Position numbers and translations under genes: made by a program. The notes beneath the pieces are model-generated. The model was not told the DNA's origin. It did no database searches and was given only the letters and a program-made list of their open reading frames with translations. From Beijerinckia indica subsp. indica ATCC 9039 (GTDB lineage: Bacteria; Pseudomonadota; Alphaproteobacteria; Rhizobiales; Beijerinckiaceae), in contig NC_010581.1 in assembly GCF_000019845.1 (NCBI RefSeq), positions 2,609,501 to 2,673,500 of the forward strand: 64,000 bases of DNA, written 5' to 3'. Each line of letters begins with the position of its first letter. Position 1 is the stretch's first letter. Positions 1,899-42,721 of the stretch are shown piece by piece.

Positions 1899-1918
1899 CT
1901 TTTTCAACAGAATACGCC
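1899..1918. repeat. Right terminal inverted repeat of the IS1182 element
   Basis: This end pairs with the left end at 393-412 at 19 of 20 positions. Nineteen bases of the same end, tttttcaacagaatacgcc, recur at 37272-37290 without a transposase. Confidence 0.85.
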
Positions 1919-2049
1919 GATATGAAAAGTTAAAATGCACTCATCCAATGTAACAAAATTGAAGGTTACAAAAGAGCTTCAAACTGGACAAAGGTAGTTT
2001 ATATTGGGGGGACGGTTCGCGAAACGAAAGAAATTGTACGTTTAGAGCT

Positions 2050-2739
2050 CTATTTTACCGGGCTTTTGAAACATTTATGCTTCAAGAAATACAGGGTTTG
2101 TTCGATGGCGATGCGGCTCCAAGGCATCGTAAAATGGGCCGCCTTGATTGTGACATGATCAGTCATTCCAAGGACTTTGGTGCGTTCGATTGATACGCGG
2201 CCATCATTTGGCCCAGAAATAAGCCACCAGCCAAATGGGTCGAGGCACCGACAACCGGCAATAATACCTAAAGGATAGTCAATCGGGCCGAACAGGCGGA
2301 CTATATCCGGCGGTGGATGAGTCGTGAGTTCAGCACCTGCCGGACCGAACATAAAGCGATAGATGATATTTTCAGCTAACAAATCCGCGATCTCGCTACC
2401 ACTATTGGGTGGTGCGAGCATGACAACATTCCCAAGCTTAGGTGGCCGATAGCGTGTGATGTAGGCGCGCGCGAGAAGGCACCCCATGGAATAGGCCACA
2501 ATATGTGTCCTTCCGTCGCCGGCAGTGATCCAATCTCGCTGGGCATGAATCTGCTCCACCAGCTCGGCAAGTCCCATTTTACAGGATGGATAATCGAGAT
2601 TAAGCGTTTCATATCCAGCCAAATTGATTGCACGTTCGAGACGACGCATCGACCCGGCACCCCTGGCAATGCCATGCAAGAGAAGCACTCTGTCACGTTG
2701 CACTTCGATTCCAATCCGTTTCGAAACTGAACTTTTCAT
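2050..2739 (-). CDS. Alpha/beta hydrolase, lipase/esterase-like
   Basis: This 229-residue protein has the alpha/beta-hydrolase layout. An oxyanion-loop motif VLLLHGIARGAGSM lies near the N-terminus and a nucleophile elbow HIVAYSMGCLLAR near residue 95, where the usual first Gly of G-x-S-x-G is Ala. It resembles small bacterial lipase/esterase-like proteins; the substrate is unknown. An Asp (GPNDGRVS) and a late His (KAAHFTMPW) are placed to complete the triad. The ATG at 2739 is preferred because it lies 4 bp after the stop of the upstream acetyltransferase and has a GAAAG-like site; a longer frame from 2787 would overlap that gene. The two genes form an operon. Base composition is more AT-rich than in nearby housekeeping genes. 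Confidence 0.75.
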   Translation of the reverse strand: MKSSVSKRIGIEVQRDRVLLLHGIARGAGSMRRLERAINLAGYETLNLDYPSCKMGLAELVEQIHAQRDWITAGDGRTHIVAYSMGCLLARAYITRYRPPKLGNVVMLAPPNSGSEIADLLAENIIYRFMFGPAGAELTTHPPPDIVRLFGPIDYPLGIIAGCRCLDPFGWWLISGPNDGRVSIERTKVLGMTDHVTIKAAHFTMPWSRIAIEQTLYFLKHKCFKSPVK

Positions 2740-2743
2740 GCTT

Positions 2744-3244
2744 TCATGAGTATGTGTCAGGCAAGTGATAAGGGAGTTGTGCCGCAATAGGGCTCACGTT
2801 CTTTTCCATATGAACGGCGATGCCACCATTTGCAGGCTCCTCATGGTGAACAGCGTAGCCGATTGATTTATATAATCTTATATTTTCTTCGAATTTTGAA
2901 TTGGTGTATAGTCTTGTAATAGAAAATCCACGGGATACCACAAGCTTCTCGGCATGCTCCAAAAGCATCCGTCCGTAACCACGCTTTTGGAAAGTCGGCA
3001 GGACTGCGACATTTTCGATCAGTAGGCCGCCGTCCTTTTCGACTGTCTCAATCAATGCGACCAACACATCATCTTCGTAAAGAAGATCAAAGCGGTGTAA
3101 TTTGAAGACCTCCTCATAATTCGCCTTCATCGGAAGTGGTTCACGCCCGATAATTGGTACCCACTTAGAGTAGGCAGCATGAGTGAGTGCGGTGATTGCG
3201 ACAATATCTTCCGTTCCTGCTCTACGAATATACACAATGCTCAT
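2744..3244 (-). CDS. GNAT-family N-acetyltransferase
   Basis: This 166-residue protein has the GNAT fold. The acetyl-CoA pyrophosphate-binding loop is clear at VLPTFQKRGYGRMLLEHAE (Q/R-x-x-G-x-G/A), preceded by beta strand 4 (GLLIENVAVLP) and followed by LYTNSKFEENIRLYKSIGY, typical of the C-terminal half. Such enzymes transfer an acetyl group to an amine; the acceptor is unknown. A very good ribosome site, GGAAGGAGG, sits just upstream of the ATG. It is the first gene of a two-gene operon with the hydrolase at 2050-2739. Both genes are AT-richer than neighbours and lie beside an IS, so recent acquisition is possible. Confidence 0.85.
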   Translation of the reverse strand: MSIVYIRRAGTEDIVAITALTHAAYSKWVPIIGREPLPMKANYEEVFKLHRFDLLYEDDVLVALIETVEKDGGLLIENVAVLPTFQKRGYGRMLLEHAEKLVVSRGFSITRLYTNSKFEENIRLYKSIGYAVHHEEPANGGIAVHMEKNVSPIAAQLPYHLPDTYS

Positions 3245-3311
3245 ATGTCCTCCTTCCCGGCTTATGCATTGTGACTGCTATCGATTTTGAGACGAGTGCT
3301 ATGTGCGGCCG

Positions 3312-3866
3312 TTAGACCTCGAAGGCTCGGCATCGCAAAGGCTTTTCCTTGCGATACCGTTGGCTCAACGAGGCAAAAGTTTCTCCAGGCCGCATCGTTC
3401 CGTTTCCACGTGGCAGGATCAATCCTGCAAGCGGTCTTCTGGTGGGCCAGAGCCGTTCAAACAACGTCTCCGGTCGTCGTCCTTTTATGCACAACGGCAG
3501 AGGATCATCGCCTTGCCGCAGGTGGCGCCTGCATTCCTCGATGAACCCCGTTTCAAGACGAAAGCCCGCCTTGAGCAGAAACAGACCCGGCCCGCGCGCC
3601 ATGGCGATTGCCGCGGCAAAACCTTCGGCTTCCGTCTCCGCCTCGACCAAGCCGCAGCCCGCGTGATCGGCGATCAGCGCGAGATCATGGCCGGCTGGGC
3701 CGATGATGATCATGTCCCGCAGCAAACCATCCACATGAGCCGGTACAAGCCCCGTGAGCGTCGAGACCATGGCTTGCGCAATATCGAAATCATCTTCTTT
3801 CGTGCCACGCCGCGACAGCCGTGACGCGTATTCATCGCCGCAGAAAACAATCGCCGAGAGCATCAC
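3312..3866 (-). CDS. Conserved hypothetical protein
   Basis: A 184-residue soluble protein that I cannot assign with certainty. It starts with a strand-like MMLSAIVFCGDEYASRL, has a hydrophobic alpha/beta middle (DMIIIGPAGHDLALIADHAG, then a Gly-rich helix AAAIAMARGPGLFLL) and ends in a basic tail. The alternating strand/helix pattern is compatible with a Rossmann-like or glycosyltransferase-like fold, but no catalytic motif can be named. Its start overlaps the stop of the upstream SRPBCC gene by 4 bp (ATGA), so the two are translationally coupled and probably act in one process. Confidence 0.6.
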   Translation of the reverse strand: MMLSAIVFCGDEYASRLSRRGTKEDDFDIAQAMVSTLTGLVPAHVDGLLRDMIIIGPAGHDLALIADHAGCGLVEAETEAEGFAAAIAMARGPGLFLLKAGFRLETGFIEECRRHLRQGDDPLPLCIKGRRPETLFERLWPTRRPLAGLILPRGNGTMRPGETFASLSQRYRKEKPLRCRAFEV

Positions 3867-36089: not shown

Positions 36090-36839
36090 ATGTCCAAACT
36101 CCTTGCCGGCAGTATCGCTCTCGTCACCGGCGCCTCGCGCGGTATCGGCCACGCCCTGGCCCTCGATCTCGCCCGCGCCGGCGCCCATGTCATCGCGCTC
36201 GCCCGCACGCAAGGCGCGCTGGAGGAACTCGACGACGAGATCCGCGATGCCGGCAGCGAGGCGACACTGGTGCCCTGCGATCTCAAGGATTTCGAGGCGC
36301 TCGACCGGCTCGGCCATGCGATTTTTTCGCGCTGGGGCAAGCTCGATATTTTCATCGGCAATGCCGGCCTGCTCGGCCCTGTGAGCCCCCTCGCCCATGT
36401 TGATCCGAAACAATGGGAGGATGTGCTCGCGGTCAATGTCACCGCCAATTGGCGGCTCATCCGCTCGCTCGATCCCCTGCTGCGCGCCTCCGATGCCGGC
36501 CGCGCCGTTTTCATTACCTCAGGGGTCGGGCATCGCGCCGATTTCAAGCCCTATTGGGGTCCCTATGCCACTTCCAAAGCAGCCCTCGACGCTTTGGCGC
36601 GGACCTATGCGGCCGAGACCGTCAATGTGTCCCCGGTCAGGGTCATGCTGGTCAATCCCGGCCCCCTGCGGACCGCCATGCGCGCCAAGGCCATGCCGGG
36701 TGAAGATCCGCTGACGCTGCGGACGCCGGAAGATTTGAGCCCCAAAGTTTTGACGCTCTGCAGCCCGGAATGGACCGAAACCGGCAAGCTCTATGACTTC
36801 CCGCAAGATCGAATTTTGAGCTTTCAAGGGCCGGCGTAA
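36090..36839 (+). CDS. SDR family oxidoreductase (YciK-like)
   Basis: A 249-residue short-chain dehydrogenase. The nucleotide motif is LVTGASRGIGHALA, NNAG appears as IGNAGLLGP, and the catalytic Tyr-Lys is in YATSKAALDALARTYAAE, with a Ser at FITSGVG. The pattern resembles YciK-type and related SDRs next to purF in Hyphomicrobiales. The substrate is unknown. The start at 36090 lies 24 bp after the purF terminator, so its own promoter must overlap that region, or it depends on read-through. Confidence 0.85.
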   Translation: MSKLLAGSIALVTGASRGIGHALALDLARAGAHVIALARTQGALEELDDEIRDAGSEATLVPCDLKDFEALDRLGHAIFSRWGKLDIFIGNAGLLGPVSPLAHVDPKQWEDVLAVNVTANWRLIRSLDPLLRASDAGRAVFITSGVGHRADFKPYWGPYATSKAALDALARTYAAETVNVSPVRVMLVNPGPLRTAMRAKAMPGEDPLTLRTPEDLSPKVLTLCSPEWTETGKLYDFPQDRILSFQGPA

Positions 36840-36846
36840 GAGGCTT

Positions 36847-36881
36847 TTGATCTGTATTCTCGCTGAGAGGATACAGATCAA
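36847..36881 (+). terminator. Hairpin terminator after the SDR gene
   Basis: A 15-bp stem (ttgatctgtattctc with one G-U pair, loop gctga) begins 7 bp after the stop. There is no T tract. Confidence 0.7.
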
Positions 36882-37427
36882 TGTGTTCTCACGATTGTTT
36901 CGGACCAGTCAGGGAAAGCATTCTCAAGCCGCTGCTGATAGATCATCAGCAACGGCTTTGTAATGTATGGGATCGCTCTTTCCAGCGAGATATTTTTCGA
37001 TGTCTATCGCCTATCCTCGTCACGATCGCCCGGTTTACGAACTCATCGTGGTGAGGTGAATTTATGCAGAATTCGGATGCGCTTGAGATGGTTATTCAAT
37101 CTCTTGCAAAAGGGGGGCAAGCGTCTATTTTTTGATAAAACTCTGCAAGCTGTTTTTCCCAGCGTATTCTCGTGAAGATGTATGGCTGGACAATATTTTA
37201 AGTTATTGATTTCTCTCAAACAGAAATTTGCTAATTGGGTGTATACATCCTCGGTGAAGGGCCGAACTGAGTTTTTCAACAGAATACGCCAGTTGGGGCC
37301 ATCGAACGAGGTTCCCGCATGAGGCATTGTTGCATGGTCCGGAAAATGAAATCCTCTTAGGTAGCCAAGGATCATGATGCGCAACGCGCTCTATTGCTGT
37401 GACAATCCGATTGACGGGGCGACGAAC
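36882..37427. other. Island border region
   Basis: This AT-rich region has no supported gene. It includes a short hairpin near 36927-36958 and a lone IS1182-type end (37272-37290). Base composition changes here from housekeeping to accessory DNA. Confidence 0.5.
37272..37290. repeat. Orphan IS1182-type terminal repeat
   Basis: The 19 bases tttttcaacagaatacgcc are identical to the right end of the intact IS at 1900-1918. No transposase or second end is visible nearby, so it is a remnant or a related solo end. Confidence 0.75.
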
Positions 37428-38630
37428 ATGTCTTTGCTCGATATTTTTTTGGATAAAGTAACAGAAGCAGACCTCAACAATCTCATTTCGACTTGTGTCC
37501 CGGAGTCCCCTACGATCGACTATAAGCGGGATACCTACGGAAATTCAGAGGGAGACAAGCGCGAATTTCTGGCCGACGTGTCATCCTTCGCGAACACCAT
37601 AGGGGGCGACATTGTTATCGGCATCGACGAAGCCGGCGGGTTACCTACTGCGGTAAAGCCCTTAACCGGCGACATCGACGCTGAAGTCCGACGCCTCGAA
37701 AGCATCGCACTTTCCGGTATCGAGCCCCGTCTTACCAATTTGCGCATTCGTTCGGTCCCCGTTGCCGGTGGACATGCCATCATAGTGCGGGTGCCACGCA
37801 GCTTTGTCCCGCCTCACCGGGTTATCGCGCAAAATAGCAACCGATTTTACGCGCGAGCCGGGACAAAGAAGTACGAACCAAATGTCGAGCAGTTACGCCA
37901 TCTCTTTACCGATGCGCCTCACGTGTTGGAGCGCATCCGATCGTTCCAGGCAGACCGACTCGTTAAGATCACCGTCGGAGAGACGCCGACTCCTCTCGGT
38001 CCGCTTGGGAAGGTGGTTCTTCATGTCATTCCCCTTCCCTCTTTTGCCGATGGCCGAATGGCTGATATTGTCTCTCAACTTGCTAAGGGAGGTCATGTCC
38101 CGTGTCCGCTCGATGAGGTGGGTTTCTCGTCCAATTACGCGGTGAATTTGGACGGATATTTGAGCTATTCCGTAGGCCCGCCGGGAGCTCGCCTAGCTTA
38201 TGCGCAATTTTTTCGAAATGGAGCTATAGAGGGCGTCGGCGAGTTAAGAAGCGACGACAACGTAAATTCATGTTTTATTACCAGAGACCTAACAAATCTC
38301 ATCATGTCTCGGGTACGGCTATACCTTGATGTGCTAAGAGCTTATGATCTGGGCCTTCCCGTCTATATTTTCCTGTCTCTCTGTAACGCCACTCGTGTCG
38401 TTTATCGATATGCTGATGCGTCTGGCGTGGGGTGTCACGACAGCCGTCCCCTATCCCGTGAGATTGTCTCCGTGCCTGAAATTTACATCGATGATTTTAA
38501 CGTCGATGTTATCGATGTGATGCGACCGGCCTTCACCACCCTTTGGAATGCTGTCGGATTTTTGAGCTGTAACAGATATGATGACCTTGCGAGGTGGAAA
38601 TCTTCGAATCCATACGCATTGACGTGGTGA
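37428..38630 (+). CDS. AlbA_2 (Schlafen-like) domain protein, putative defence gene
   Basis: A 400-residue protein. Its N-terminal half carries an AlbA_2 domain: TIDYKRDTYG (~residue 28), the hallmark FLADVSSFANTIGGDIVIGI (~46-66) and NRFYARAGTKKYEPNVEQL (~141-160). The C-terminal half (from ~190) is a mixed alpha/beta region that I cannot assign. AlbA_2 domains are linked to Schlafen-type proteins, some being regulators and some nucleases or parts of anti-phage systems. The start at 37428 (MSLLDIFLDKVTEADL) follows GGGGCGACGAAC; a longer frame from 37374 is less likely. Codon use is more AT-rich than in the flanking genes. The next gene, on the same strand, is a STAND NTPase. Confidence 0.8.
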   Translation: MSLLDIFLDKVTEADLNNLISTCVPESPTIDYKRDTYGNSEGDKREFLADVSSFANTIGGDIVIGIDEAGGLPTAVKPLTGDIDAEVRRLESIALSGIEPRLTNLRIRSVPVAGGHAIIVRVPRSFVPPHRVIAQNSNRFYARAGTKKYEPNVEQLRHLFTDAPHVLERIRSFQADRLVKITVGETPTPLGPLGKVVLHVIPLPSFADGRMADIVSQLAKGGHVPCPLDEVGFSSNYAVNLDGYLSYSVGPPGARLAYAQFFRNGAIEGVGELRSDDNVNSCFITRDLTNLIMSRVRLYLDVLRAYDLGLPVYIFLSLCNATRVVYRYADASGVGCHDSRPLSREIVSVPEIYIDDFNVDVIDVMRPAFTTLWNAVGFLSCNRYDDLARWKSSNPYALTW

Positions 38631-39107
38631 TAGCGCCAAAATTGCGATTAAGGCCACAAAGTAAATCTTTATGCCCACGAGGTCCAAAAATAGTGAGTTT
38701 TGCTTGATCGGTGCGCTCCCGAATTTTCAACGGGTTGGATCGTGCAAACAGATAGATGCCAAACGTCATTTTGATCCATGCGGCCGGCCACCATGTCTGC
38801 CGTTCAGCCGAAATAATTCTGCTTTCAAAGGCGGACATGGCTGTCAGCGACGCTCCGTCGGCGCGACCATTGGCGATGGACAGAAAAGAACTATCTACGT
38901 TGCGTGGCCCTAACTGACGTTGGGAATGTCTGCATCGCGCCTCTCGAGGAAAGGGTGGCTGCTATAGAAATAGCCTACCTGTCGGGGAACAGATCAGCTA
39001 TTCACTTGAGTCCGGAAGAGCAGCAGCCGCGTCCGCGATCGCGAAGGATCACCGCAGCCCGACGCGATCTTTGTTATAGTGGCCAGAGACTCCAAAATCA
39101 CTCAGCT
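38631..39107. other. Gap between the AlbA_2 and STAND genes
   Basis: No gene is supported in these 477 bp. An upstream in-frame extension of the STAND gene (from 38904) is open, but its sequence is Arg-rich and not protein-like. A TTGTTATAGT-like -10 region at about 39071-39080 could start the STAND transcript. Confidence 0.45.
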
Positions 39108-41822
39108 ATGAACCCACAGACACGAAAGCTCCTGATCCAACGCCTTATCGAGCCCATCGGCATGATCGGCCCTGAGTTCGAGCGTTTCGGGGAGCTATTC
39201 TTGGACCATTTGCTTTCCACACCGCTCGAGCACAGCGGGTTGAACGTACTCGGTTTTCCGGTCAGCCGCGTACTGGATAGCAGTGCCGCCGATGGCGCAA
39301 TCGTGGCGGAATATTCCGCTGAGAACGACTACTTCACGAAAGGGATGCCCAAGGCCCAAAAGGACATCGCCCACGCCTTGTCTCATCGTCCGAACGTAAG
39401 GCTGGTGCTCCTGATCGCTGCGCAGCCGAGTCACCCCCAGATCGTAGAGAAATTCCTCCAAGTGGCGATGGCGGGGCCCGGGATGAAAGAGCGCTCGCTC
39501 CGGATCTGGGGCGCCGAACGCATTGCTGAGCAGCTTGTCGACAAAATCACGTTCAATGACTCGGCTGTCGAGGCGCTGTCGGCCTACCTGCCCGTGCTAA
39601 CCGAGATTTGGGAAGAAGCCGCGCGGGACCGCCTGTTTCCCGCGCCCGATCCACGGCACCGGCGGCGTCCCACGGTATCCGCCCAGATCCATTGTCGCCT
39701 TACGACCGAGACGTGTGTCATCCTCGGCGGCATCGCAGGCAGCGGAAAATCGGACACGGTGGCTGCCTACGGCGCCGATCATCGCATGGACTACGACCTC
39801 TTGATCTGGTTCGATGGCGATGAGATCAGCCGTGTGGATGATCTGCGAGCAGCCCCTTTGATGCGCGGGCGAGAAAAGCGCAACATCGCCAGCCTTATGC
39901 GTACCCGACGCTGCTTGTTGGTGATCGACGACCCCAAAAACCCGCTCGAAGCTTCAGCGCTGGCGGCGCTTTGCGGGCCTGGAACTCACGTTCTGGTCAC
40001 GACGCGGGAACTGCGGCCCGACGTGTACGCGATGCCGTCGATGTCGGCGGCGGAAGCACGCGCTATCCTCGACGCCGATGTTCCAGCCTCTTGTCCACAG
40101 AATGTCTTTGACACGATCTGGGCCACAGTCGGCGGGCATCCGCTCAGTCTTGCCCTGATGAATGGCGCGGTCCGCGACGGCGCTCCCTGGTGCGACATCC
40201 AAGAAGATTGCTCCGCCGTGGGCCAGCTTGCCGACCCTAAGCAGCGGCTGGCGGATCGTCTTTTGCTTCGGCGGCGAGATCTCCTGCAGGCCCCCCTCGC
40301 TGTCTTCGAGTGGGCAGGTCAGCCTGAGTGTGACGAAGGATTCCTGCGGTTTGCGGTAAAACCGGCCGGCATTCGCAACCTGCGCACCCACGCGCTGACT
40401 GCCGCCGACCGCGACGCCGTGGTCCGTCTGCATGACGTAGTGTTTTCCAGCCTCTCGAGCCTCGACTGGTGGACGCCGGTCGAGCGCAATCAACTCAACG
40501 ACAAGCTCGAGGCCTATCTGGTAGCAGCGTCCGAAGCTAATGACTTGAGCCTGCGGGCTGCGGCCGGAAGCCTTCGGAAACGGCTGGAGGCCCTCATCGC
40601 TGCCGGTGATGGACGCCCAGCCTTCCTACTCGCGTTGCTGATGGCCTGGACGCCGGAGGAGATCGACCCCATTCCATTGGGAGATCCGGCGGCCAAAGCG
40701 TCAGCGTTCGCGGCTGCAAAGCTCCCGATCGCCCACGTGGAGTTTCGCCTGCTCATCGAGACCGTCGAACAACTCTTCCTCCGCGTGAAAATTGAGGGAG
40801 AGGCAGCGACGACCGCATTCCTTGACAACATTCTGCCTATGTTTGACAGCTTGGCCCAACTGCCAAGCTTGAGCCCTCGCCAAACGGCCGAAATTCATCA
40901 CCATCGCGGCAAGGTCTATCGCCGGCTGCACCGCGATGCGGATGCCCAACGCGAGTTCGAAACGGTGATTGCCGGGCCTTCTCCGCTAGACGCCACGCGC
41001 CTACAACTGATCCGCCTCTACAAGTCGGCCAACAAGTGCGCGGCAGCTGCGGAACTCGGTAAAGAGGTCCTGACGGCGGCGGAAGACACCGGCGACGTTG
41101 CCCCTTCAGTATTGCTAGCAGTGATTCAAGACCTTCCGTGGCGGGACGCCTCGGTTCGGGCGGAGCTCCTTCTATCAAAGCAGGACTTCATTGAACAGAC
41201 AATCGTCAGTTATGCGAACGCAGGCTACGATCAGGCGTACAAAACCTTAGCGGCGGTGGCGCGTTGGTGGTCCCAGGAGGCGCCGGAGGTCTTGGAGCGA
41301 GTGCTGAAGGCGATCCCAGCTCTGAGTGCGGAACGCGTCGACGACGACGAGTCGCGCTTCGCTTTTGGAGATATTCTGTTGGAGGCATCGCGAGCGTCGG
41401 GCGCCGGCGTGGCGGAGAACCAGAAGCTCGCCTTATCCTTCTTCGAGGCAGAGGTACAACCGCATGATTTCCACATTCAACGGCATGCGGAACTGTTGCT
41501 CGACATGGGGCGGCACGCCGAGGCAGAAGTCTTGCTTGGAGCGCACCAGCACTTCGCTTCGAGCTGTTGGATCCAACGGCTAATGGCAAGGGCACGTCTC
41601 GCGCAGGATGACGCACCCACCGCGCTGACCTGGATTAACCGTGCGCTGGCGGACGACAGGTGTAGCAGCCGACATGACGAGTTCCTGGAACTCCGCTATG
41701 AGATCCGCCGAGCACTCGGCGAGGCGAGTGCCCTGGAGGATCTGAGTGCAGCGGTCAACCTTTCGGCGGCGGGCCCACGGCGCTCGCGCCTCGAGGCCAT
41801 GCTCGCGGCTGCGACCGCTTAA
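39108..41822 (+). CDS. STAND/NB-ARC NTPase with helical-repeat C-terminus, putative anti-phage protein
   Basis: A 904-residue three-part protein. Residues 1-175 resemble a PD-(D/E)xK-type effector domain: ...DSSAADGAIVAEYSAENDYF (~residue 55-74), with Asp and Glu but no certain Lys. Residues ~195-400 are an NB-ARC-like NTPase: P-loop ILGGIAGSGKSDT (~205-215), Walker B RRCLLVIDDPKN (~266), the sensor HVLVTTREL (~293) and the GxP motif VGGHPLSLALM (~340). Residues ~450-904 are helical with TPR-like repeats (AEIHHHRGKVYRRLHRDADA; QRHAELLLDMGRHAEAE). In STAND proteins the repeats sense a ligand and the NTPase oligomerises to switch on the effector. The start at 39108 lacks a strong ribosome site. 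The effector assignment is inference; the STAND call is firm. Confidence 0.82.
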   Translation: MNPQTRKLLIQRLIEPIGMIGPEFERFGELFLDHLLSTPLEHSGLNVLGFPVSRVLDSSAADGAIVAEYSAENDYFTKGMPKAQKDIAHALSHRPNVRLVLLIAAQPSHPQIVEKFLQVAMAGPGMKERSLRIWGAERIAEQLVDKITFNDSAVEALSAYLPVLTEIWEEAARDRLFPAPDPRHRRRPTVSAQIHCRLTTETCVILGGIAGSGKSDTVAAYGADHRMDYDLLIWFDGDEISRVDDLRAAPLMRGREKRNIASLMRTRRCLLVIDDPKNPLEASALAALCGPGTHVLVTTRELRPDVYAMPSMSAAEARAILDADVPASCPQNVFDTIWATVGGHPLSLALMNGAVRDGAPWCDIQEDCSAVGQLADPKQRLADRLLLRRRDLLQAPLAVFEWAGQPECDEGFLRFAVKPAGIRNLRTHALTAADRDAVVRLHDVVFSSLSSLDWWTPVERNQLNDKLEAYLVAASEANDLSLRAAAGSLRKRLEALIAAGDGRPAFLLALLMAWTPEEIDPIPLGDPAAKASAFAAAKLPIAHVEFRLLIETVEQLFLRVKIEGEAATTAFLDNILPMFDSLAQLPSLSPRQTAEIHHHRGKVYRRLHRDADAQREFETVIAGPSPLDATRLQLIRLYKSANKCAAAAELGKEVLTAAEDTGDVAPSVLLAVIQDLPWRDASVRAELLLSKQDFIEQTIVSYANAGYDQAYKTLAAVARWWSQEAPEVLERVLKAIPALSAERVDDDESRFAFGDILLEASRASGAGVAENQKLALSFFEAEVQPHDFHIQRHAELLLDMGRHAEAEVLLGAHQHFASSCWIQRLMARARLAQDDAPTALTWINRALADDRCSSRHDEFLELRYEIRRALGEASALEDLSAAVNLSAAGPRRSRLEAMLAAATA

Positions 41823-42199
41823 AACTAATGCTGCTTGGCTGCTGCAGTCGCCGACCATGGCGATGAAAGGCAACTTCAGACTTGTCGTGAGCTTCGCTAT
41901 GGCGGCCTATAATCGTCGCAGTTGGTAACCCCATTTTCGCTTCGCCGATAGCTGCCGCTGATACTCAGGCTCTAATATCCCGTTGGCGCTTCAAAGGTCC
42001 GAAGTGGGCTGTCTCCTTCGGGCCACAGCTGACCTTCAAGATGCTAAGGTCAGCTTCGGGCTTTTAAACTGTCCTCCCCGAGCCAGAATCAGCCGATCTA
42101 AAGAGTGTCTCCCGAAAGTTGGCTTGCAGAGACAACAGCCCCTTATCGACGAACCAACTCGTCGCGCCGTTATCGTCAACACCGCGAATACACACGCCC
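41823..42199. other. Downstream region of the STAND gene with a hairpin
   Basis: No gene is supported. A 10-bp hairpin (agctgacctt ... aaggtcagct, 42027-42055) followed by CGGGCTTTT could terminate plus-strand transcripts from the island. Confidence 0.55.
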
Positions 42200-42721
42200 T
42201 CAATCGCGGCTGAGGCGAAAGTCCGCGATCCAGCCACGGATCTCCCGTTTGATTTCCTGGAAATAGGCCCAAATCCTCGTCGATTGCACAAAGGCGCGCA
42301 AACGGTCGCGATAATGGATCAGCCAATCCATCACGAAAGCGAACCAGCGGATATACCGTAGCTTGACCTCGCCCGCATGATAGATCCGCTCGACCACGAC
42401 GAAGCTGACGAGATAAGCGCCCACCAGCGTCACAATGCCTGACAGCACATGACCCGCGCCGATGAGGTAGAGGCCGTAAATCTTGGCAGGCTCGGCGAGG
42501 CCGAAGGGCACGGCCAGCAAAAAGAGAATCATATAAGGGGAGAGATCGGCGATCAGCCGTTCCAATCGCAGCACCAGGGCGAGCCTGGCGAACCAATCCG
42601 CGATGGGCCGAAACAACGGCGCCACCACCGCGTCGAGCAAGAGATAGAACAGCACCAAGCCTTGCGCCAGCCAAAGCAGCAGGCGGCGCAAGGGGGACAG
42701 ACCTGCATCTGGATCGGACAA
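42200..42721 (-). CDS. Conserved membrane protein of unknown function
   Basis: A 173-residue inner-membrane protein with about four helices: a membrane-associated N-terminal segment (LLLWLAQGLVLFYLLLDAVVAPLF), LSPYMILFLLAVPFGLAEPAKIYGLYLIGAGHVLSGIVTLVGAYLVSFVV in the middle and an amphipathic, charged tail. I recognise it only as the kind of conserved hypothetical membrane protein found near der in Hyphomicrobiales. It stands at the end of a minus-strand group with the 75-residue protein and der. Confidence 0.65.
   Translation of the reverse strand: MSDPDAGLSPLRRLLLWLAQGLVLFYLLLDAVVAPLFRPIADWFARLALVLRLERLIADLSPYMILFLLAVPFGLAEPAKIYGLYLIGAGHVLSGIVTLVGAYLVSFVVVERIYHAGEVKLRYIRWFAFVMDWLIHYRDRLRAFVQSTRIWAYFQEIKREIRGWIADFRLSRD

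Follow-up and report, generated by a model that had tools for sequence, protein, structure and literature searches.

The closest described relatives of the locus reported here are nucleases, nuclease-containing effectors and immune ATPases of several kinds. The locus lies in a stretch of 64,000 nucleotides (the window) of the Beijerinckia indica subsp. indica ATCC 9039 genome (NC_010581.1, positions 2,609,501 to 2,673,500) and consists of two adjacent genes, one for a SLFN_AlbA_2 protein of 400 residues (P0001) and one for a STAND ATPase of 904 residues (P0002). The Schlafen nucleases (SLFN11 and SLFN13) and the bacterial Schlafens resemble P0001 in the SLFN_AlbA_2 domain, in the E..[DE]xK acids and in a probable RNase activity, while P0001 differs from them in having one SLFN_AlbA_2 domain followed by a C-terminal module of 230 residues that matches nothing in Pfam, PADLOC or the PDB. 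The catalytic acids of rat SLFN13 are given as E205, E210 and D248 (PMC5862951), and the Schlafens linked to BREX are described as carrying instead a C-terminal histidine-kinase part and a winged helix-turn-helix (PMC12839542). A survey of prokaryotic Argonautes (pAgo) reports Schlafen/AlbA_2, TIR and SIR2 domains around them (PMC6299218). The effectors of short pAgo systems (TIR-APAZ and REase-TIR-APAZ, REase being a restriction endonuclease) place the same effector kinds before one C-terminal domain, to which the module of P0001 is unrelated by profile (0.3%). Avs and other STAND/NLR-like immune ATPases share with P0002 a STAND NTPase, a C-terminus of repeats and an extra N-terminal domain, but P0002 is matched by no PADLOC model and its N-terminal domain has no known relatives. 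Defence by bacterial Schlafens has reportedly been claimed already in a preprint, known to us through its citation, which may describe relatives of P0001; the Schlafen-type protein of this locus is therefore not a new kind of defence, and what we add is an apparently undescribed C-terminal module that is predicted to work with several effectors.

The reading that we consider fairly probable is that the two genes are independent single-gene phage-defence candidates that share one insertion site, and not one system. An earlier note on this DNA had proposed a two-gene defence system of the AlbA_2 protein and the STAND ATPase, with homologues that should be adjacent in unrelated genomes. A hidden Markov model (HMM) search of all open reading frames (ORFs) in the loci fetched from outside the own genome gave no AlbA_2/module hit in any of 19 STAND loci (L006-L013 and L026-L036) and no STAND hit in any of 81 AlbA_2/module loci, many of which are refetches of one gene and some of which have flanks of 1.5 kb, while 46 are 7 kb or longer. 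No plasmid record was common to the STAND and AlbA_2 proteins among the 20 matches listed for each. The AlbA_2 gene has a GC content at third codon positions (GC3) of 0.540 and the STAND gene one of 0.707, and because of this difference the two genes probably have different histories. The proposed pairing was rejected on the absence of co-occurrence in these loci, as far as they were examined, an outcome that the note itself had named as refuting, together with the differing GC3 and the differing gene contexts of the two families. The side-by-side position of these two probable anti-phage genes is thus most likely a coincidence and not a working pair, and adjacency on one insertion should not be taken as evidence for a two-gene system. 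The defence role suggested in the same note stays plausible for each gene alone, each of them resembling a horizontally spread conflict gene, and lacks support for the pair.

P0001 is encoded at 37428..38630 (+ strand), with a start like that of its relative L092, which likewise begins MSLLD; a further in-frame ATG is found at 37374. Its single Pfam match is SLFN_AlbA_2 (PF04326), over residues 26-150, with E 1.3e-14 and 55.1 bits against a curated cut-off of 25.3, which confirmed the AlbA_2 protein of 400 residues that had been noted before. The nuclease domain (37503..37877, + strand) holds E26, D31, K33 and the acidic pair D67/E68. Alignment of 35 members, the own protein included, showed that E26, [DE]31 and K33 are jointly present in 33 of them and that an acid is located at position 67 or 68 in 32. 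Compared with the SLFN13 triad, the first two acids and the lysine are kept in P0001, and the acidic pair D67/E68 may hold the third acid. The nuclease profile found CbCash as its best relative of solved structure (PDB 9ylu, 9ylv and 9ylx; E 6.6e-14 with 9ylu, profile positions 23-160), followed by SLFN11, SLFN8, SLFN14 and SLFN12 with E-values from 9e-7 (SLFN11) to 1e-4. CbCash differs from P0001 in being a chain of 297 residues, and the match ends with the nuclease part. We predict that P0001 is a single-gene immune RNase.

The C-terminal half of P0001, previously left unassigned, indeed gave no database match, and we now find it shared with proteins of other kinds. This module (residues 170-400; 37935..38627, + strand) had no relative by sequence in the PDB (best E 0.82), no convincing match in Pfam (best E 0.013, in 2 of 12 rows) and none in PADLOC, where one of 12 members reached one model at E 0.038, which we took as chance. 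A plasmid search with P0001 returned a Planococcus protein that matches residues 189-396 only (E 4e-8) and whose N-terminal domain is TIR_2 (E 2e-32). A search with the C-terminus of this TIR protein gave eight records, itself included, which were haloarchaeal proteins, annotated as hypothetical or as restriction endonuclease, and AlbA_2 proteins again; a haloarchaeal query returned 15, itself counting for two of them. Mrr_cat was detected in all three haloarchaeal proteins tested (E 2e-4, 6e-3 and 3e-4) and in six of seven further ones (E 8e-5 to 0.03). The REase part of the PADLOC model Aga_REase-TIR-PNTD1-PNTD2 was matched by five of the six Mrr-type proteins scanned (L115, with E 2e-7, and four of the five others). 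These Mrr_cat and REase matches are the grounds on which ten haloarchaeal rows were labelled Mrr, locus by locus.

Comparison of the profiles with hhalign showed that the SLFN-type C-termini align with the Mrr-type C-termini at 99.3% (E 3.3e-20, 212 columns) and with the C-terminus of the TIR protein at 99.7% (E 3.8e-27, 215 columns), while the controls gave 1.0% (N-terminus of the STAND protein) and 0.3% (two TIR-APAZ-type proteins). By this comparison a homologous C-terminal module stands behind SLFN, TIR or Mrr-like N-terminal domains; it is conserved and apparently undescribed, and it is joined to two other predicted effector kinds in bacteria and archaea. A search of titles and abstracts, whose reach did not extend to bioRxiv or to the majority of subscription papers, found none that deals with the module or with this STAND family. 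An identity of the module with APAZ, which we take to be the PNTD of the PADLOC model names, was rejected on the 0.3% obtained with hhalign and on the lack of an HMM hit to the two proteins that match PADLOC Aga_TIR-PNTD1-PNTD2. The whole Planococcus TIR protein aligns with PADLOC bSEFIR over residues 7-227, reaching into the module, and the module alone did not match this model. No Argonaute was seen among the annotated neighbours of the AlbA_2/module loci viewed, a statement that leaves aside their hypothetical proteins.

The 73 C-terminal hits collapsed to 47 distinct stretches, of which 46 were used for a tree; L069, L073, L075 and L097 were left out of alignment A9. In this tree, which has long branches and in which 19 of 43 forks are open, the ten Mrr rows group together in one clade (100/99) that lies beside the haloarchaeal SLFN protein L017 on an unstarred branch (90/83), and the TIR protein is placed elsewhere. 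Two effector changes suffice to explain the tree, which is the minimum possible for three labels. The stretch dropped from it was L082 (G651, 883-1776, + strand), in which the final ~130 residues of the module follow a dissimilar N-terminal stretch and which is either a remnant or a fourth architecture; we put it aside as possibly a remnant. Two Haloplanus strains have plasmids with the SLFN form (L017) and the Mrr form (L061), respectively, so that this one genus holds a natural effector-swap pair.

The N-terminal SLFN_AlbA_2 domain of P0001 would act as the toxic effector, most likely as an RNase on tRNA by analogy with SLFN13, and the C-terminal module would be the sensor or assembly unit that recognises a cue of infection and activates the effector, leading to abortive infection. 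Since other organisms have this module fused to a TIR or an Mrr-like nuclease domain, the module would be the constant part and the killer domain the interchangeable one; TIR domains are NADases and Mrr domains are DNases. We prefer to read the module as the constant input side of an immune receptor made by one gene, in which it may sense phage. Whether these 230 residues are an undescribed immune sensor of one-gene receptors, in use from haloarchaea to proteobacteria and with a Schlafen RNase, a TIR NADase or an Mrr-like DNase swapped in, is to us an evenly balanced question. If they are, one conserved receptor would feed three unrelated toxic outputs, which would allow sensing to be told apart from the mode of cell death and would link Schlafen immunity to one particular prokaryotic input domain. 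The profile of the module also provides a handle for the search of further effectors.

Matches to the AlbA_2 family were found in four of 60 genomes (own included; one other is full-length), in 5/289 of a class sample (own included) and in 13/398 of a phylum sample at E 1e-15, eight of these over most of the profile, and the module itself was found in 7/398 of the latter, one being the partial L082. The P0001 search gave matches in 28 plasmid records. Two scans of IMG/VR contigs gave 11 and 15 loci, seven of them shared and 19 different; single queries with P0001 alone, the TIR protein or an Mrr-type protein, which reach close relatives only, gave no confirmed locus in IMG/VR. Phage records had no match to P0001 at 1e-5 and none to its C-terminal half at 0.01. 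The genes of this family stand alone with varied neighbours, such as restriction-modification, Abi and RelE/RelB-type genes for the Acetobacter member. On haloarchaeal plasmids, Mrr-type module proteins are encoded beside SIR2 (L111, 3539-6434) and beside KwaB-like and BREX-5 PglZ genes (L112, 1817-8642).

The STAND gene (39108..41822, + strand) begins with a start (MNPQTR...) that is common to its homologues. The ATPase of 904 residues with the P-loop GSGKS and the Walker B motif LLVIDD was borne out by this ORF and by matches to STAND structures, since a profile of seven members found a plant NLR (9jbn, E 1e-6), the TPR sensor PH0952 (6mfv, E 2.9e-5) and Apaf-1 (E 0.006) in the PDB. P0002 is accordingly assigned by profile and motifs as a STAND/NB-ARC-type ATPase with a TPR-like C-terminus. 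Its NTPase core (39681..40157, + strand) is covered by a match to NCBIfam NF040586 (residues 192-350, E 1.2e-10) that is far below the cut-off (40.6 of 300 bits), and the single sequence was not significant against Pfam NB-ARC (E 0.15). Of the TPR-like repeats proposed earlier, weak Pfam TPR matches could be found at residues 594-621 and 797-851 (E 0.04 and 0.11); the repeat region (40875..41747, + strand; outer limits estimated) is likely the ligand-sensing part. The N-terminal domain of 191 residues (39108..39680, + strand), of unassigned fold, has E25, D57, E68, S70, K82 and D86 in all nine chosen members of alignment A10. The earlier suggestion of a PD-(D/E)xK-like N-terminus was not confirmed: D57 and E68 are kept in 9/9 but a serine takes the place of the lysine two residues after E68 in 9/9, and profiles gave no support. 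Searches with this domain found nothing beyond chance in the PDB, one chance-level hit in Pfam (in one of nine members) and, in plasmids, family members only plus one chance-level record (E 0.6); hhalign against three Mrr-like N-termini gave 0.35%. The Avs-type assignment is not supported, as no PADLOC model, in a library that presumably holds Avs models, matched P0002 (E up to 1) or two of its relatives (E up to 0.1). P0002 would act as a lone NLR-like receptor in which the TPR part binds a trigger, the NTPase then oligomerises and the N-terminal domain of 191 residues serves as the effector.

The STAND family was restricted to the own genome among the 60 genomes and in the class sample (1/289). 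Matches were found in 21 plasmid records, 11 loci came from one pattern-based scan of a collection of 84,980 species, none was confirmed among 20 pattern matches in IMG/VR, and one phage record matches 12% of the protein, at residues 193-300 only. P0002 belongs, as judged from its sequence, to a rare family of STAND proteins and stands alone. The loci fall into two clades. Clade B comprises 12 loci (L008-L010, L027-L030 and L032-L036), and in all 12 a divergent radical-SAM gene and a dTMP-kinase-like gene lie just upstream of the STAND gene, the dTMP-kinase-like gene overlapping or closely preceding the STAND-TPR gene. This three-gene unit occurs in alpha-, beta- and gammaproteobacteria, on plasmids and on other contigs, and the motifs CxxxCxxC and G[IV]DGSGK[ST] are intact in the six loci checked; in L036 the STAND gene is broken into three frames. 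In both loci scanned the dTMP-kinase-like gene matches PADLOC PDC-M51B (E 4e-12 and 1e-13) and the radical-SAM gene weakly matches PDC-M51A (E 1e-4 and 2e-4), a candidate system whose genes are absent beside the STAND gene of the window. A nucleotide-enzyme pair tied to an NLR-like receptor merits a study of its own.

Clade A comprises the window, L006, L007, L012, L026, L031 and L011. Neither enzyme gene was found in its six loci besides the window (L007 and L012 being near-copies), nor, by eye, among the neighbouring ORFs of the window, and the divergent Enterobacter relative L013 likewise has neither. Comparison of the window with L006, L007, L026, L031 and L011 showed no trusted shared neighbour except an integrase gene, 83% identical, in L006 and L026; the remaining matches were the STAND gene itself, overlapping frames and the widespread SDR family. 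In L011 (3022-7344), the STAND homologue of a Bradyrhizobium plasmid is in two pieces with IS21 istA/istB between them. L011, interrupted in this way, entered none of the alignments, and A8 omits L036, which is in three frames, and L029, which closely resembles L028 and L033.

The two genes, on the same strand, are the only content of a 5.4-kb insertion (36835..42268, no strand) located between an SDR gene and a gene for a hypothetical protein of 173 residues. In the one genome of the same genus that was searched (G001, locus L106), blastn and tblastn comparison with the window showed that the whole 5.4 kb is absent and that ~100 nt separate these neighbours, which strengthened the earlier view of an acquired island. 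The edges of the insertion were taken from the blastn blocks and are good to within some tens of bases, and no direct repeat flanking it was recognised. The two genes are separated by the intergenic gap of 477 bp described previously (38631..39107, no strand), which is single copy in the own genome.

One two-gene system, with phage sensing by the STAND protein and the AlbA_2 protein as its effector, would agree with the same strand, the adjacency and the one insertion absent from G001, and a single insertion is indeed also what an acquired pair would show. With flanks of 1.5 kb in many loci a distant partner could also be missed. We nevertheless find such a system highly improbable, since the two families did not co-occur in the loci fetched from outside the own genome (46 of the AlbA_2/module loci being 7 kb or longer), the gap measures 477 bp, the GC3 values differ, the STAND protein has an N-terminal domain of its own and its sister clade has other fixed partners. 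Those partners raise the question of whether the STAND gene is instead a remnant of a radical-SAM/dTMP-kinase/STAND unit that no longer works, as the constant presence of both enzymes in clade B would allow. This we judge improbable, as the gene is intact with its P-loop and Walker B motif and its own clade is without the enzymes throughout; four of the loci of that clade (L006, L007, L012 and L026) have a full-length STAND frame, which argues that the lone form is a stable lineage.

For P0001, the module could, instead of sensing, bind a substrate or mediate dimerisation, and a related explanation makes it a nucleic-acid-binding or dimerisation domain and has the AlbA_2 protein serve a mobile element as regulator or toxin. 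The pAgo survey calls AlbA_2 DNA-binding (PMC6299218), and five members (L016, L018, L020, L064 and L111) have a gene for a tyrosine recombinase or integrase next to them or nearby. We consider this explanation rather unlikely, given that the Schlafen acids are kept in nearly all aligned members and that the same module with TIR and Mrr-like domains, plus the defence neighbours, fits immunity better. Single-gene defence draws on the shared module, the kept active-site acids, the mobility on plasmids and viral contigs and the defence neighbours. Several observations weigh against it: the motif E..[DE]xK is missing from L064 and that part of the domain from L014, the third Schlafen acid is not strictly conserved, the TIR fusion is represented by one protein only, Mrr_cat scores hover near the Pfam cut-off and exceed it in five of ten haloarchaeal proteins, and L115, one of the ten of Mrr type, has no Pfam match. 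The nuclease also occurs apart from the module, 12 of the 81 loci (L004, L005, L041, L045-L050, L053, L075 and L097) being without a module hit at E 1e-4, and the activity of all family members is predicted. Two independent single-gene candidates remain the reading that we favour.

The surroundings of the insertion are housekeeping-like, as the earlier description of a lone pair amid such genes had it: purF, SDR and der were recognised by eye from translations, and DnaB, alanine racemase, a RadA-like ATPase and CvpA by Pfam. The AT-richer DNA mentioned there applies to the AlbA_2 gene (GC 0.519) and to the non-coding parts but not to the STAND gene (GC 0.619), whose GC3 resembles that of purF (0.713; SDR 0.736, der 0.754). 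A nearby insertion sequence end could not be substantiated, no insertion sequence being recognised by Pfam among 10 chosen flanking ORFs (three of them without any match at E 0.01), and the two non-coding flanks had no match in plasmids. Among the loci of five neighbouring genomes, the complete order of the window (purF, SDR, the 173-residue hypothetical gene, a 91-residue gene and der, named by eye) was found in G001 only. In G016, SDR and purF are located directly beyond der and the 173-residue gene is not there, while in the other three only der was present in the fetched stretch, in one of them together with the gene that flanks der on the other side. Between der and the 91-residue gene, G001 has a stretch of 1.5 kb (L106, about 1915-3399) where the window has 66 nt, which suggests that this neighbourhood is a variable site.

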